Shown in pieces: positions 1,393 through 10,073 of a stretch of DNA of 10,533 nucleotides. The stretch is from Clostridia bacterium. GTDB lineage: Bacteria; Bacillota; Clostridia; Oscillospirales; CAG-382. Numbering within the stretch: position 1 is the stretch's first letter; every line of letters starts with the position of its first letter. The translations under genes and the position numbers were made by a program. The notes under the pieces were generated by a model, which did not search any database, was not told the DNA's origin, and saw only the letters and a list, made by a program, of their open reading frames with translations. The DNA lies in the NCBI GenBank assembly GCA_017397605.1, contig JAFQII010000147.1, forward strand, positions 1 through 10,533. Reading direction: 5' to 3'.

Positions 1393-1401
1393 GGGTTGCA
1401 A

Positions 1402-1535
1402 ATGATGTTGCGCTTTGCGCAAATGATGTTTGCCGCTTTTGCGGCAAAATGATGTTGAGCGTTGCTCAAATGATGTGACGCTTCGCGTCAATGATGTTGT
1501 GCGCCCGTCTGCTTTCGCAGACTATTCGCGCACAA
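1402..1535. repeat. Hairpin array R: five stem-loops separated by ATGATG spacers
   Basis: Five perfect or near-perfect stem-loops follow one another with exactly six bases, ATGATG, between them (1423-1428, 1449-1454, 1470-1475, 1491-1496, plus a leading copy at 1402-1407). The hairpins are at 1408-1422 (TTGCGC/GCGCAA), 1429-1448 (TTTGCCGC/GCGGCAAA), 1455-1469 (TTGAGC/GCTCAA), 1476-1490 (TGACGC/GCGTCA) and 1497-1535 (TTGTGCGC/GCGCACAA, with an inner GTCTGC/GCAGAC hairpin). Stem sequences differ while pairing is kept. It begins ten bases after the kinase stop codon. Read on the minus strand the spacer is CATCAT, as in the two downstream arrays, so this array is in the opposite orientation. Confidence 0.9.
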
Positions 1536-1579
1536 AAAATAAGTTGCGAGATATGAAAATATTCCAAAGGTAAACAACT
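1527..1579 (+). repeat. Direct repeat copy 1 (with 1677-1730)
   Basis: A 53-nt sequence beginning CGCGCACAAAA, continuing AGTTG and the core AAATATTCC, and ending GGTAAACAACT. It matches 1677-1730 at most positions with one gap, offset by 150 bp. The AGTTG...CAACT ends are also inverted to each other, so each copy is a loose palindrome around AAATATTCC. Its first nine bases are shared with the closing arm of the last hairpin of array R. Confidence 0.8.
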
Positions 1580-1676
1580 TGTGAGCCTCCCTCCGGGAGG
1601 GAGGTGGCATTTTCGTCAGAAAATGACGGAAGGAGCCTGCGAGCATCAAAAGTTATGTCTTTTGTTATAGTGATTG
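1580..1676. repeat. Hairpin-rich insert between the direct repeats (MITE-like)
   Basis: A 97-nt segment between the two direct repeats. It holds CCTCCC/GGGAGG pairing at about 1587-1602, then CATTTTC-GTCA-GAAAATG at about 1609-1626, followed by GACGGAAGGAGCC. No reading frame here looks protein-like. The layout (short repeats outside, nested hairpins inside, no transposase) resembles a small non-autonomous element; that is inference. Confidence 0.5.
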
Positions 1677-1730
1677 CGCGCACAAAAGCCGAGTTGTTGA
1701 CAGATGGAAATATTCCGAGGGTAAACAACT
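1677..1730 (+). repeat. Direct repeat copy 2 (with 1527-1579)
   Basis: Second copy of the direct repeat: CGCGCACAAAA, then AGTTGTTGACAGATGGAAAT, core AAATATTCC, ending GGGTAAACAACT. The arms AGTTGTT and AACAACT are fully complementary in this copy. Hairpin array A starts nine bases further on. Confidence 0.8.
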
Positions 1731-1738
1731 GTTTCCGT

Positions 1739-1891
1739 TTGCAAGCGAAGCTTGCAACATCATTTGCACGCAGTGCAACATCATTTGCGGCGCAGTCGCA
1801 ACATCATTTGCGCGAAGCGCAACTTCATTTGCGGCGCAGTCGCAACATCGTTTGCACGCAGTGCAACTTCATTTGCGAGCCATGCTCGCAA
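1739..1891 (+). repeat. Hairpin array A: seven stem-loops with CATCAT/CTTCAT spacers
   Basis: Seven hairpins of the form TTGC...GCAA are separated by six-base spacers CATCAT, CATCAT, CATCAT, CTTCAT, CATCGT and CTTCAT. Cores are GCAAGC-GAA-GCTTGC (1741-1755), GCAC-GCA-GTGC (1766-1776), GCGGC-GCA-GTCGC (1787-1799, one G-T pair), GCGC-GAA-GCGC (1810-1820), GCGGC-GCA-GTCGC again (1831-1843), GCAC-GCA-GTGC (1854-1864) and GCGAGC-CAT-GCTCGC (1875-1889). Six of seven loops are GNA triplets closed by C-G, a loop type known to make very stable DNA mini-hairpins. Its first and last hairpins are identical to those of array B. Confidence 0.9.
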
Positions 1892-1920
1892 CACTTTTCG
1901 TGCCTGAAAACGCACTTTTT

Positions 1921-1950
1921 TTGCCAAAACGCACTTTTAAGCAATAAAAT
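1921..1950 (+). promoter_or_regulatory. Possible sigma-A promoter of the ABC exporter operon
   Basis: TTGCCA (1921-1926), an 18-base spacer and TAAAAT (1945-1950) lie in the only AT-rich stretch of the 1393-2136 region, between hairpin arrays A and B. An overlapping TATAGT (1950-1955) has no good -35. Start of transcription would be near 1957, giving a leader of about 180 nt that includes all of array B. Moderate match only. Confidence 0.45.
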
Positions 1951-1988
1951 ATAGTATTCTGCAAGCGTCGGCGGAACTACTGTTCCGT

Positions 1989-2111
1989 TTGCAAGCGAAG
2001 CTTGCAACATCGTTGATGCGGCGCGTCTCACGCGTCGCATCACTTCATTTGCACGCAGTGCAACTTCATTTGCGACGCAGTCGCAACATCATTTGCGAGC
2101 CATGCTCGCAA
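1989..2111 (+). repeat. Hairpin array B: five stem-loops just upstream of the ABC gene
   Basis: Five hairpins with six-base spacers CATCGT, CTTCAT, CTTCAT and CATCAT: GCAAGC-GAA-GCTTGC (1991-2005), a longer 12-bp stem with one G-T pair and loop TCTCA (2014-2042), GCAC-GCA-GTGC (2051-2061), GCGAC-GCA-GTCGC (2072-2084) and GCGAGC-CAT-GCTCGC (2095-2109). The array shares TTCCG plus its first hairpin, and its last hairpin, with array A, so one is probably a rearranged copy of the other. The last stem ends ten bases before the ribosome binding site GGGAGGTG (2122-2129). Confidence 0.9.
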
Positions 2112-2136: not shown

Positions 2137-3990
2137 ATGGCTGAGAATAAAGACAACAAACAAAAAGAACCCAAGCGCAAGCCGAAATACGGGATGTGGA
2201 CCTGCATCAAATGGCTTGCGGCGCGGCTTTGGAAATGGGACAAGCTGACTGCGGTGTGCTGTATCGCGACCGTTCCGCTGGCGCTGGTGCTGTACGCCGT
2301 CAACCTCTACACGCCCACCGCGATCTTAAACGCGCTCCAAACGGCAAAGAGCTTTGATATCGTCGCGCTGACGGTTGTCATGCTGTTCGGTACGCAATTG
2401 GGATTTCGGCTGATCAAAATCGTCACGGACGGCGCACGCGGACTTGCGCACCATGACGGCGCGATGCATTTTTATTTTGAACTGGTCAAAAGGATGTCAG
2501 AGGACGATTTTCACCTGCTGTTGGACGAGGATTACCTCACCCGCCGTCGCCGCGCGGGGGAAGTGCTGGGCAACAGCGCCGCAGGCTCGCCCACGCAATA
2601 TCTGCTCAACGCCGTCAACGTCGTCGCCGATCTGCTGTGCTTTTTGATGTTCGGCTCGGTGATCTCGCTGCTGCATCCCGCGATCATTTTGCTGTTGATC
2701 GCAGGCTCTTTTGTGACCTTCTTTCTGCAAAAAAGACAGCAAAACCGTAACCACGCCCGCACCGACGAAACCGCCGCCGTCAACCAAAAGATCAATTATC
2801 TGTCTTGGAACCTTTCCGCCAACCCACGCCCCGGCAAGGACATCCGTCTGTACGGCCTGGCGCCGTTTTTAAATCAAAAAGGCAAAAAGCTGATCGGTGA
2901 GCACACAAAGCTGCTCAAATTCCGACAGAACAACCAGTCCGTCGTCACCGTCGGCACGCATCTGGTCAACGCACTGCGCGACGGCGTCGCTTACCTCGTA
3001 TTGATCTACGCCGCCATGGAAGGCAGGGTCACGGCAGGCGAGTTTGTGCTGTATTTTTCCGCCATTTCCCAGATGTCTGGCTTTATCGGGGGAATCATCG
3101 GCTATTTCGGCTCCCTGCACGAAATGCGGCTCAAAACCTCTGACTGCATCGAATATTTAGACGACGATTACAACCGTCTCAGACGGGAAGGGGGTATTCC
3201 CAAGCCGACGGGCAGGCCCCTCTCCGTGGAATTTCAAAACGTGACCTTTAAATATCCGCGCGGTGACAAAAACGTGTTGGAAAACGTCAGCTTTACGATC
3301 CGCGCAGGAGAGAAAATCTCGCTCGTCGGACTCAACGGCGCGGGCAAAACCACGCTGACCATGCTGATGTGCGGGATGTACCTGCCCGACGAGGGCGACA
3401 TTCTGATCGACGGACATTCCGTCTTTGAATACAACCGCGACGACCTGCACAGCCTGTTTTCGCTCCTTCCTCAGGAGTACACGGTATTGCCCACCTCTAT
3501 CGCCGAAAACGTCGCCATGCAAGACCGCGCCGACATCGACGAAAAACGCCTTTGGAGCGCAATGGAGACCGCAGGCATTGCAGACCGCGTCCGCGCGCTT
3601 CCCGACGGCATCGAAACGGGCATGAGCAAGGAATATGACGCCAACGCCGTCAATTTTTCGGGCGGGGAAATGCAAAAGCTGTTGCTTGCGCGCGTGCTGT
3701 ACCACCGCGCACCGATCATGATTCTGGACGAGCCGACGGCGGCATTGGACCCGATCGCGGAGCACCAAATGTATCTCAAATACAATGAGATCGCCGGGGG
3801 CACCACGGCAATCTTCATCTCCCACCGCCTCGCCTCGACACGCTTCTGCGACCGCATTTACCTGCTGGACGGCGCTTCCTTTGCGGAATGCGGTACGCAC
3901 GACGAGCTGATGGAAAAGGGCGGCAAATACAAGGAGCTGTTTGACATCCAGAGCAAATACTACAAGGAGGGCGCGACCGATGAGCTCTAA
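2137..3990 (+). CDS. ABC exporter half-transporter (permease-ATPase fusion), subunit 1
   Basis: A 617-aa membrane exporter subunit: basic N-terminal tail (1-20), a transmembrane domain with helices roughly at 38-58, 73-95, 163-180, 182-198, 280-295 and 302-325, then an ATPase domain from about 363. Walker A is GLNGAGKTT (398-406), Q-loop Q446, signature FSGGEMQ (507-513), Walker B IMILDEPT with D531 and catalytic E532, D-loop ALDP, H-loop H563. All ATPase motifs are intact. Start 2137 is set by GGGAGGTG at 2122-2129. It overlaps the next gene by 11 nt and the two proteins share layout and the LSKEYD/LSKKYD and ALDPIAE stretches, which indicates a heterodimer. The family exports drugs, peptides or lipids; the substrate cannot be read from sequence. 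The adjacent LytTR system makes a peptide or antimicrobial plausible. Confidence 0.93.
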   Translation: MAENKDNKQKEPKRKPKYGMWTCIKWLAARLWKWDKLTAVCCIATVPLALVLYAVNLYTPTAILNALQTAKSFDIVALTVVMLFGTQLGFRLIKIVTDGARGLAHHDGAMHFYFELVKRMSEDDFHLLLDEDYLTRRRRAGEVLGNSAAGSPTQYLLNAVNVVADLLCFLMFGSVISLLHPAIILLLIAGSFVTFFLQKRQQNRNHARTDETAAVNQKINYLSWNLSANPRPGKDIRLYGLAPFLNQKGKKLIGEHTKLLKFRQNNQSVVTVGTHLVNALRDGVAYLVLIYAAMEGRVTAGEFVLYFSAISQMSGFIGGIIGYFGSLHEMRLKTSDCIEYLDDDYNRLRREGGIPKPTGRPLSVEFQNVTFKYPRGDKNVLENVSFTIRAGEKISLVGLNGAGKTTLTMLMCGMYLPDEGDILIDGHSVFEYNRDDLHSLFSLLPQEYTVLPTSIAENVAMQDRADIDEKRLWSAMETAGIADRVRALPDGIETGMSKEYDANAVNFSGGEMQKLLLARVLYHRAPIMILDEPTAALDPIAEHQMYLKYNEIAGGTTAIFISHRLASTRFCDRIYLLDGASFAECGTHDELMEKGGKYKELFDIQSKYYKEGATDEL

Positions 3991-5824
3991 AACAAAATCA
4001 CTCCGCAAGGACCTCGCGCTGATCGTGCGCGGCTACAAGCTGTTGTTTGAGATCTCGCCTTCCAACATGGTGTGGCGCACGGTCAACTGCATCGTGCAGC
4101 AGATCTGGCCCTATTTCTCGCTGTATATGTCTTCCCTGCTGATCAACGCGCTTGCCGCAGGCGCGTCACTGCAAACCCTGCTGATTCTGGCGGCGGTCAC
4201 CGTCTTCGGACTGCTGTTTCTCAACGTCTCGATGCACCTCATCAACCGCAAAGCGGAGGAAAAGGAAAGCATCAACTACAACCTCAACGAGCTGTATCTG
4301 CTGGACGCGCAATGCCGCATGCAGTACAAGCATTTTGAGCACCCCGACACCGCGCTCCTGCGCCAGACCATCCGCAACCACTCCAACTACGGCGGACACG
4401 GATTGCCAAAGCTGTACTGGATCTATTGGAGCTGGCTGTCCGCACTTATCAACATCATTTTTTCGGTATCTTTGACCGTTTCGATGCTGAAAACGGCAAG
4501 CGTATCGGGGCTGACGGGATTTCTCGCCTTTGTCAACACGCCGTATTCCGTGCTGGTGATCCTTGCCGTCATCGCGGTCAACGTTTCCGTCCAGCTTTTG
4601 CGCGTCAAGCATTTTGACCTCAAGGAAACCAAGGAGTGGCAGGATTTTAACACGCGCTTTGCGCACAGCAACGCCTATATGACGGCAGAAAACGCGGACG
4701 TCCGCTTGTTTGGTGCCGTGCCGTTTACATTAAGCCGAAGCGAACACGTGCTCAACGACCGCACCTATATCCGCAGACTGCTCAAAAACGGCATCGCAGG
4801 CAACTACGTCGAGCACATCATGAGCACGTTTATGAATGTCGCGCTTGCGATCTACGTGGGTGCCAAAGCGTTTATCGGCACGTTTGGGATCGGCAACTTT
4901 GTGCTGTACCGCGGCACGGTCGAAAAGTTTGTCGGCGCCGTTTCCACCCTCGCGGGCGCATTCGGCAACCTTCGCATCAACAACCCCTATCTGGAGGACG
5001 TATTCCGCTTTTTGGATCTGCCCGACGAAATGTACAAAGGTACGCTTTCGGTTGAAAAGCGGGACGACAACCGTTTTGAGATCGAGTTCCGCGACGTGTC
5101 GTTCAAGTACCCCGGCGCAGACAGCTACGCCCTGCGGCATGTCAATTTCAAATTCCGCATCGGCGAGCGATTGGCGTTTGTCGGCATGAACGGCTCGGGC
5201 AAGTCCACCTTTATCAAGCTGCTTTGCCGTCTGTACGACCCGACCGAAGGAACGATTCTGCTCAACGGCATCGACATCACGCGGTACGACTACGACCAGT
5301 ATCTGGCGCTGTTCTCGGTAGTTTTTCAGGATTATCACCTCTTTGCGTTCTCTTTGGGCGAAAACGTCGCGTGTGCGGAACATTACGATGCCGCCCGCGT
5401 CACGGACGCACTGCAAAAGGCAGGCTTTTCCGACCGACTCGCCGAGATGGAACAAGGGCTTGACACCCACCTATCCAAAAAATACGATCTCTCCGGCATC
5501 GAGATTTCGGGCGGCGAATCGCAAAAGATCGCCCTTGCACGCGCATTGTACAAGGACGCGCCGTTCTTTATTCTCGACGAACCGACGGCGGCGCTGGACC
5601 CGATCGCCGAGTCGGAGGTTTACAGCCGTTTCAACGAAACGGTCGGCGAAAAGACCGCCGTGTTTATTTCGCACAGACTTTCTTCCTGCCGTTTCTGCGA
5701 CAAGATCGTTGTGTTCCACGAAGGACAGCTTGTGCAGTTCGGCTCGCACGACACCCTCGTCGCGGACGAAAACGGCAAATACCACGAGCTCTGGCACGCG
5801 CAGGCACAGTATTACGCAGACTAA
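3980..5824 (+). CDS. ABC exporter half-transporter (permease-ATPase fusion), subunit 2
   Basis: A 614-aa partner of the upstream subunit. The transmembrane domain has helices roughly at 34-58, 66-86, 148-170, 188-206, 283-300 and 305-328. The ATPase domain begins near 366: Walker A GMNGSGKST (402-410), Q450, signature ISGGESQ (509-515), Walker B FFILDEPT with D533 and catalytic E534, H-loop H565. I chose the ATG at 3980 because AAGGAGG (3964-3970) sits nine bases before it; an in-frame ATG at 3941 lacks such a site and would add 13 residues reading from inside the upstream gene. The 11-nt overlap implies coupled translation. Both halves keep the catalytic glutamate, so neither site looks degenerate, unlike many asymmetric heterodimeric exporters. 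A terminator follows directly. Confidence 0.94.
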   Translation: MSSKTKSLRKDLALIVRGYKLLFEISPSNMVWRTVNCIVQQIWPYFSLYMSSLLINALAAGASLQTLLILAAVTVFGLLFLNVSMHLINRKAEEKESINYNLNELYLLDAQCRMQYKHFEHPDTALLRQTIRNHSNYGGHGLPKLYWIYWSWLSALINIIFSVSLTVSMLKTASVSGLTGFLAFVNTPYSVLVILAVIAVNVSVQLLRVKHFDLKETKEWQDFNTRFAHSNAYMTAENADVRLFGAVPFTLSRSEHVLNDRTYIRRLLKNGIAGNYVEHIMSTFMNVALAIYVGAKAFIGTFGIGNFVLYRGTVEKFVGAVSTLAGAFGNLRINNPYLEDVFRFLDLPDEMYKGTLSVEKRDDNRFEIEFRDVSFKYPGADSYALRHVNFKFRIGERLAFVGMNGSGKSTFIKLLCRLYDPTEGTILLNGIDITRYDYDQYLALFSVVFQDYHLFAFSLGENVACAEHYDAARVTDALQKAGFSDRLAEMEQGLDTHLSKKYDLSGIEISGGESQKIALARALYKDAPFFILDEPTAALDPIAESEVYSRFNETVGEKTAVFISHRLSSCRFCDKIVVFHEGQLVQFGSHDTLVADENGKYHELWHAQAQYYAD

Positions 5825-7973: not shown

Positions 7974-8068
7974 AACCTTTCTTTTGAAAAAGAAAAGGTT
8001 AAGCCTCGCTTACAGCGAGCCTAAAAAATCTCCAAAGAAAACTGAATGCCGAAAGCTATCGCTTTCGG
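7974..8068. repeat. Composite hairpin repeat, copy 1
   Basis: Three hairpins in a row: an AT-rich stem AACCTTT.CTTTT/AAGAAAAGGTT (7974-8000), CTCGCT-TAC-AGCGAG (8005-8019), then after AATCTCCAAAGAAAACTGAA the hairpin CCGAAAGC-TATC-GCTTTCGG (8049-8068). The linker and last hairpin correspond to 10029-10073 (AATCTTCAAAAAACT..., CCGAAAAC-TGCC-GTTTTCGG), with a compensating base change in the stem. Confidence 0.65.
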
Positions 8069-8183: not shown

Positions 8184-8247
8184 CTTAAACTTTTTCTTCT
8201 AAAAAGAAAAAGTTTAAGCAGGAGTTCAAGAGGACAGCGTCCTCTTG
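8184..8247 (+). repeat. Composite hairpin repeat, copy 2, in the leader of the XRE gene
   Basis: A perfect 15-bp stem CTTAAACTTTTTCTT/AAGAAAAAGTTTAAG with loop CTAAA (8184-8218), then CAGGAGTT, then a perfect 9-bp stem CAAGAGGAC-AGC-GTCCTCTTG (8227-8247). Same plan as 7974-8019 and, inverted, as 9974-10028. No T-run follows either stem, so neither is a classical terminator. Confidence 0.75.
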
Positions 8248-9973: not shown

Positions 9974-10073
9974 TTGAGGCTCCGCCTCAAACTCCGCCAA
10001 AGAAACTTTTTGCAAAAAGTTTCTTTGGAATCTTCAAAAAACTTTATGTTTGGCCGAAAACTGCCGTTTTCGG
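9974..10073. repeat. Composite hairpin repeat, copy 3, downstream of the degV-like gene
   Basis: TTGAGGC-TCC-GCCTCAA (9974-9990), then a perfect 32-bp palindrome with arms CCAAAGAAACTTTTT and AAAAAGTTTCTTTGG (9997-10028), then linker AATCTTCAAAAAACT and hairpin CCGAAAAC-TGCC-GTTTTCGG (10054-10073). The palindrome begins 36 bases after the degV-like stop codon and may help end transcription, although no clean T-run follows. Confidence 0.75.

Follow-up and report, generated by a model that had tools for sequence, protein, structure and literature searches.

The window analysed here, a stretch of 10,533 nt, is the whole of contig C120 of a Clostridia bacterium (lineage CAG-382) whose metagenome-assembled genome (MAG) is 61% complete in 300 contigs. 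It carries, between a histidine kinase (HK) gene and an ABC transporter gene, three arrays of variable-stem hairpins joined by a constant six-base spacer, CATCAT or a close variant. The reading we favour, with a probability of about 60%, is that these arrays are copies, without the gene, of a small clostridial mobile element, resembling miniature inverted-repeat transposable elements (MITEs), and that the complete element consists of a PF05635 gene with adjacent hairpin arrays. PF05635 (TIGR02436) is the 23S rRNA intervening-sequence protein (IVP), a four-helix bundle. IVP genes recur beside such arrays, the linker between the hairpins follows the IVP tree, orthologous loci differ in whether they have arrays, and related copies adjoin different genes. 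New here is the PF05635 partner gene for hairpin arrays.

A PF05635 gene recurs beside the arrays

An open frame beside the array was common to several array loci, and the two that were tested both proved to be PF05635 (E-values 5e-28 and 8e-28). The frame also matches TIGR02436, 'four helix bundle protein'. The host genome has four PF05635 matches, and all four have adjacent hairpin arrays, with four different linkers. The IVP genes on contigs C75 and C184 have arrays on both sides, with CATCAT/CTTCAT and AATTCAT linkers, respectively, and those on C269 and C126 have an array on one side, with GTGATAT/ATATCAC and GTGAAAT/ATTTCAC linkers, respectively (C75 and C126 were listed by the chain finder; C269 and C184 were read by eye). 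The C75 protein matches PDB entry 2rld (E-value 4e-22). The window itself is without the gene, as no PF05635 match was found among the nine window open reading frames (ORFs) scanned.

In the family to which the host belongs, 50 of 63 genomes contain PF05635. Loci were scored by a repeated word touching hairpins, a conservative measure that gives C75 a score of 3 and C269 a score of 2. A score of 4 was reached at 43/96 distinct family IVP loci, at 1/43 control loci (flanks of dnaN, HK and Y1 genes) and in 0/96 shuffles; this threshold was read off after the run, and at threshold 3 the corresponding counts are 57/96, 5/43 and 0/96. With the stricter demand of a score of 3 on both sides, 25/102 IVP loci passed, against 0/43 controls and 0/102 shuffles (six loci fetched twice were removed from the 96-locus count and retained in the 102-locus count).

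The link between the CATCAT motif itself and a PF05635 gene is clear at the level of loci. Counted by hand from two complete listings, the gene lies within 1 kb of the motif in 10 of 57 motif-bearing contigs (G001:C87, G004:C42, G021:C62, G027:C30, G033:C26, G033:C59, G036:C38, G037:C22, G044:C26 and G050:C23), where simple arithmetic on about 120 genes in some 120 Mb gives an expectation well under one. Among 152 CATCAT blocks, 40 have a PF05635 gene within 600 bp, a biased rate because the set includes loci fetched for holding PF05635.

Linker type follows the IVP tree

On a tree of 68 labelled IVP proteins, seven linker types required 14 changes, where the minimum is 6 and the shuffled mean 33.9, and none of 200 shuffles was as low. 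The result was similar for the 51 rows obtained through the PF05635 search, which takes no account of linkers (13 changes against a shuffled mean of 31.7; 0/200 as low). The four IVP copies of the host genome fall in four linker groups, each of which is found in other genomes too. Judged from this tree, which has about 135 columns, many open forks and some long branches, and in which near-copies help the clustering, each linker type tends to go with its own IVP version.

Spread of the spaced hairpin motif

Absence of the spacer from other loci would, according to the first-pass annotation, have marked the array as a local accident. The spacer does recur elsewhere, and the array is not local. 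A two-spacer CATCAT-type pattern was found in 25/63 genomes of the family and 78/394 genomes of the order, whereas the reversed pattern was found in 1/63 and 6/394, respectively. Some of the family matches (e.g., in G005 and G052) show no hairpin and are probably due to chance. An exact 14-mer was too specific, recovering the window and one match each in G049 and G054. Scans for three spacers in collections of named genomes and viruses gave, among the matches listed, true arrays as well as plain tandem repeats in unrelated taxa. Hairpin-chain loci with CATCA-type spacers in the named collection were, again among the matches listed, mostly from ruminant Clostridia MAGs, with one from Faecalibacterium prausnitzii. 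Other linkers occur in chains of the same records (ATATCGC, ATTTCAC, ACTTCAC and ATGATATA). Four loci of the viral collection yielded 12 CATCAT hairpin units.

Gene-bearing elements, probable gene-less copies and their sites

The complete element on C75 is ordered as array, AAAGTTGATTTGT, ribosome-binding site, gene, AACAACATAACGTTTGC, array. A MITE is an internally deleted form of a coding element, and both C75 junctions are recognisable in gene-less cores, with 34/41 columns matching at best and weaker similarity in the window. The best match is that of the right junction to C274, and the left junction shares AAAGTTGATTTGT with C31. Five related gene-bearing copies were also compared (L249, L332, L335, L339 and L330, of which L249 starts inside the element). 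Their order is a terminator-like hairpin, a minus-strand array, a core near CGATGTTTGCC or similar, a plus-strand array, a promoter-like sequence, a ribosome-binding site and the IVP gene; the promoter-like TTGACA-17-TATAAT is present in four of the five. Over 571 bp, the IVP elements of L249 and L332 share 96% identity; the two genomes are placed in different families, and recent transfer or mis-binning may account for the match.

The left flank ends in CCA in the four gene-bearing copies that have one, and ARAGORN placed a tRNA there for L335, L339 and L315 (the locus of L332) and listed none for L330. A tRNA 3' end within 150 bp is faced by 54/152 CATCAT blocks, compared with 114/3040 random blocks; a tRNA 5' end that near on that side was found for 0/152 CATCAT blocks, with no random figure for 5' ends. 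A hairpin lies directly behind the tRNA in 66/79 cases with a downstream CATCAT array and in 76/107 without an array. With respect to orientation, 75 of the 152 blocks are bipolar and read outward, 23 read inward, 13 are mixed and 41 have a single orientation.

At the locus in the window, the HK gene (78% identical) and the ABC genes are shared with two congeners, G002 and G009, neither of which has arrays at this orthologous position. The aligned parts are separated by about 123 bp in the congeners and about 763 bp in the window. These empty sites are only 71-78% alike, and the exact insertion junction could not be fixed. Because a piece resembling the intergenic region of the congeners (TTTTTTGCCAAAAC ...) can be recognised by eye between arrays 2 and 3, the comparison suggests that arrays 1 and 2 with their core are one insertion and array 3 a second.

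Five more CATCAT-type array loci of the host genome, in addition to the window and C75, are on C31, C212, C274 (two) and C287. By eye, the array ends shortly before a ribosome-binding site on C31, C212, C287 and the dnaN side of C274. The dnaA-dnaN gap of this genome (343 bp; L229:1489-1831, G000:C274) is filled by a bipolar hairpin array; congeners retain DnaA-box-like and (TAG)n repeats in this gap, as judged by eye. A search of C274 for TTATCCACA boxes found none. A stretch of C93 (L399 near 1500, G000:C93) looks like oriC, having two TTATCCACA boxes and a (TAG)n run; in the search for it the reversed pattern matched as well.

Layout of the arrays in the window

The arrays comprise 5, 7 and 5 hairpins with 15 spacers, every one of six bases, and this architecture, described in the first-pass annotation, proved real. 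Fourteen spacers join two hairpins and the one at 1402 is leading; on the CATCAT strand they read CATCAT (9), CTTCAT (4) and CATCGT (2). Of 16 simple stems, 13 are perfect and 3 have a single G-T mismatch, two of these three being identical in sequence; the seventeenth hairpin is compound. Counting as a junction two perfect hairpins, each with 6 bp or more, at a distance of exactly 6 nt, we found seven in 1380-2140, against a maximum of 0 in 500 first-order shuffles of the region, and eight in the whole window, against a maximum of 1 in 200 shuffles. Form and spacer are thus kept while the stem sequence is free, as had been claimed. The claim that many loops are C-GNA-G holds in part, since the window loops are more varied than stated: on the CATCAT strand they are GCA (6), GAA (4), CAT (2), AAA, AAC, AAAA and CTC (1 each).

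The CATCAT strand is the minus strand in array 1 and the plus strand in arrays 2 and 3, so that reading is outward from a core near 1535-1732. Array 1 (1393-1534, minus strand) begins just behind the HK stop codon, where there is a TTGCAA remnant, and has four simple hairpins (1408-1422, 1429-1448, 1455-1469 and 1476-1490) and the compound hairpin (1497-1534); its spacers at 1402, 1423, 1449, 1470 and 1491 all read CATCAT. Core copy 1 (1527-1582), from the lead-in AAGTTG ... to AAACAACTT, belongs to repeat families D4/D5 and resembles the junctions of the gene-bearing C75 element minus the gene, its alignment to the L328 junctions being weaker than that of C31 and C274. Core copy 2 (1677-1738) ends in AAACAACTGTTTCCGTT ahead of array 2. 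Between the two copies lies a palindromic stretch unrelated to the element (1583-1676, with CCTCCCTCCGGGAGGGAGG and CATTTTCGTCAGAAAATG); the palindrome CCTCCCTCCGGGAGGGAGG is of another kind and looks as if a second repeat had inserted into the element core.

Array 2 (1739-1891, plus strand) has seven hairpins, with spacers CATCAT at 1758, 1779 and 1802, CTTCAT at 1823 and 1867, and CATCGT at 1846. The congener-like stretch that separates the two putative insertions spans 1892-1982 (by eye, against L204 and L205). Array 3 (1983-2111, plus strand) consists of the lead-in TTCCGTT and five hairpins (stems 1989-2111), with spacers CATCGT at 2008, CTTCAT at 2043 and 2064, and CATCAT at 2087, and stops shortly ahead of the ribosome-binding site of the ABC gene. 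Stem units recur between arrays 2 and 3. A cluster of intrinsic terminators would have a T-run directly behind each hairpin; here CATCAT-type spacers come next instead. Outside the element, all on the plus strand, are genes for a LytTR response regulator (36-740) and the GHKL histidine kinase (742-1392) on one side, and two ABC transporter genes (2137-3990 and 3980-5824) on the other. Other long inverted repeats of the window, terminator-like and outside the arrays, are at 7978-8019, 8184-8247 and 9974-10028.

Single-stranded DNA or RNA

In DNA, loops of the C-GNA-G and C-GNNA-G types are unusually stable. We collected 420 distinct hairpin units, read on the linker strand, and 423 terminators of the same loci, excluding from both sets hairpins with more than one mismatch. 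Loops of the units are GNA (169), other three-base (113), GNRA (45), GNYA (37) and TNC (6), whereas those of the terminators are GNA (6), TNC (6), GNRA (34), GNYA (12) and TNCG (7). Perfect stems were found in 397 units and 285 terminators. Mismatches in the units were G-T (8), A-C (2) and other (13) of 2444 pairs, compared with 70 G-T and 52 A-C of 4261 pairs in the terminators; the comparison, in particular per pair, is rough because terminators needed stems of at least 7 bp and units of at least 4 bp. Taken together, the loops and the scarcity of G-T pairs favour single-stranded DNA over RNA. The first-pass annotation had hinted at single-stranded DNA, and its hint is strengthened by the strand-specific G-N-A loops and the contrast with RNA terminators.

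The alternative that survives best is that the arrays are transcribed and act as a structured RNA, either a small RNA (sRNA) of the Gut-1 kind or an mRNA element, with IVP as an RNA-binding protein. We consider this unlikely, although RNA has some points in its favour. The Rfam Gut-1 model matches the GTGAAAT flavour, the window arrays lie between co-directional genes, and other IVP-type ORFs occur in rRNA intervening sequences that are excised by RNase III (PMC4990558). The excess of G-T over A-C pairs on the linker strand also points to RNA, and taken alone it is weak (7 vs 1, p 0.07; 8 vs 2 among the 420 units). Against RNA stand the loop and pair counts above, with their difference in stem length, and the position of the arrays upstream of the promoter-like sequence in the aligned gene-bearing copies. 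Furthermore, in the 75/152 blocks with a bipolar, outward layout, the favoured loops of the two halves cannot be combined in a single transcript; a pair of divergent RNAs or of 3' single strands could supply them. A loop argument of similar kind, pointing to RNA, was used for the STAXI motif (PMC2864571).

Mechanism and remaining alternatives

IVP probably forms a ring-shaped oligomer, a homologue from Xanthomonas being a homopentamer (PMC4990558). If the arrays belong to a mobile IVP element, the protein would recognise the linker and the hairpin form, most likely in single-stranded DNA. Such recognition would leave the stem sequence free while pairing, loop and linker are kept. It may be needed to copy or move the element, and the gene-less copies in the window would then depend on IVP supplied in trans, for which the CATCAT-clade copy on C75 is the candidate. 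Movement might use single-stranded DNA at the replication fork or a borrowed reverse transcriptase, the latter being an option because PF05635 is said to resemble Avd of diversity-generating retroelements (PMC10053308). More tentatively, and in our view possible without being probable, this may be a class of bacterial mobile element without a recognisable nuclease or polymerase of its own, in which an Avd-like four-helix-bundle ring protein identifies successive single-stranded DNA hairpins from their linker and shape, whatever the stem sequence. Linker and protein would co-evolve as lock and key, and copies would come to lie between operon genes or after tRNA terminators, with the lagging strand or a borrowed reverse transcriptase as a possible route.

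Several observations weigh against the mobile IVP element. Within the family, 53/96 IVP loci stay below score 4, as do two of the four in the host genome (C75 and C269). Outside the family, only 5/21 fetched IVP loci score 4, none of the four best order-level PF05635 matches among them, and many IVP genes are without such an array; the array link therefore holds for part of the PF05635 family. At the genome level the link is weak, with PF05635 in 22/25 motif genomes and 28/38 without the motif, and a PF05635 search of G020, G022 and G023, which have arrays, found none. Linker words were picked after looking, and 44/112 proteins are unlabelled. The two cores of the window align to the C75 junctions less well than those of C31 or C274, and the source genomes are mostly MAGs. 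Mobility and recognition are proposed from sequence comparisons.

A second alternative is that these are MITE-like repeats moved in trans by an ordinary transposase, IVP being a regulator or a mere passenger. It would account for gene-less copies where a genome has yielded no IVP, for the dispersed similar copies in G020, and for the bipolar layout with inverted ends in many blocks. We regard this as less probable still than a structured RNA, since the aligned elements showed no transposase gene and the linker follows the IVP tree. The only transposase family tested, Y1, does not track the motif: PF01797 is present in 9/25 motif genomes and 9/38 without it. The REP-type (repetitive extragenic palindromic) Y1 transposase that had been suggested as partner is thereby not borne out; PF05635, the partner that emerged, is no HUH enzyme. 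As a candidate partner, the Y1 or REP-associated tyrosine transposase (RAYT) also lacks support in individual genomes, being absent from G020, G044 and G045 (91-99% complete, 6 to 14 motif matches) and from the array-rich G022. Finally, a by-product of replication, by unit duplication and templated correction of quasi-palindromes with no dedicated protein or function, would explain the stem units shared by arrays 2 and 3 and the near-perfect pairing, and is improbable because a linker that follows a protein tree, strand-specific loops and specific sites are all unexpected from it.

Comparison with known systems

The biological role of PF05635 proteins has been called unclear (PMC4990558), and arrays with a lineage-matched linker are a candidate ligand for the family. 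The finding ties together rRNA intervening sequences, the orphan Gut-1 motif and anonymous palindromic repeats of gut Clostridia, and a code of free stem and fixed linker would be an unusual mode of nucleic acid recognition by a protein.

The closest relatives are the 23S rRNA intervening sequences with an S23p/PF05635 ORF, which have the protein family in common and likewise look like small selfish elements that carry inverted repeats. A role of their S23p ORF product in mobility has been proposed (PMC4990558). The elements described here differ in lying outside rRNA genes and in having variable-stem hairpin arrays with a lineage-specific linker; no rRNA match at the Rfam gathering score was found in the window, which is thus not a 23S insertion. 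One rRNA intervening sequence is reported to have tandem heptamers immediately before its S23p ORF (PMC4990558), and these might be a reduced counterpart of the linker arrays. PF05635 genes have also been reported in cas loci (PMC3936711) and in rRNA insertions of the candidate phyla radiation (PMC11270868). Within excerpts of the open-licence PMC literature, nothing described PF05635 together with hairpin arrays located outside rRNA.

Gut-1 RNA (RF01706) resembles the arrays in having variable-stem hairpins on a constant GUGAAAU, and its model matches L100, L105 and L256. These matches are mainly of the GTGAAAT flavour, a weaker one (L256:1209-1279) having GTTATAT, and the CATCAT arrays of the window gave 0 matches to Rfam, including RF01706, at the gathering score. 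Gut-1, listed as 'human gut only' and discussed as a noncoding RNA (PMC2864571), thus corresponds to one linker flavour, entered in Rfam as 'sRNA' and modelled on the strand opposite the GNA loops.

As the first-pass annotation had it, the arrays are neither CRISPR (clustered regularly interspaced short palindromic repeats), nor classical REPs, nor simple tandem repeats. A CRISPR array has a long constant repeat, whereas here the constant part is just six bases and the variable parts are palindromes. With respect to diversity-generating retroelements, no reverse transcriptase was seen in the aligned copies; template and variable repeats were not searched for. In REPs and bacterial interspersed mosaic elements (BIMEs) with RAYT, too, palindromes outside genes bear a conserved tag, and the same palindromes stand on either side of a gene (PMC3733652). 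They differ in their constant words, GTAG or CGTC by the definition in that source, as opposed to CATCAT, CTTCAT and CATCGT with free stems. The partner here is PF05635 in place of a Y1 RAYT. REP-RAYT systems have the same design, in which a gene lies between palindromes of its own; the protein, the tag and the array are different.
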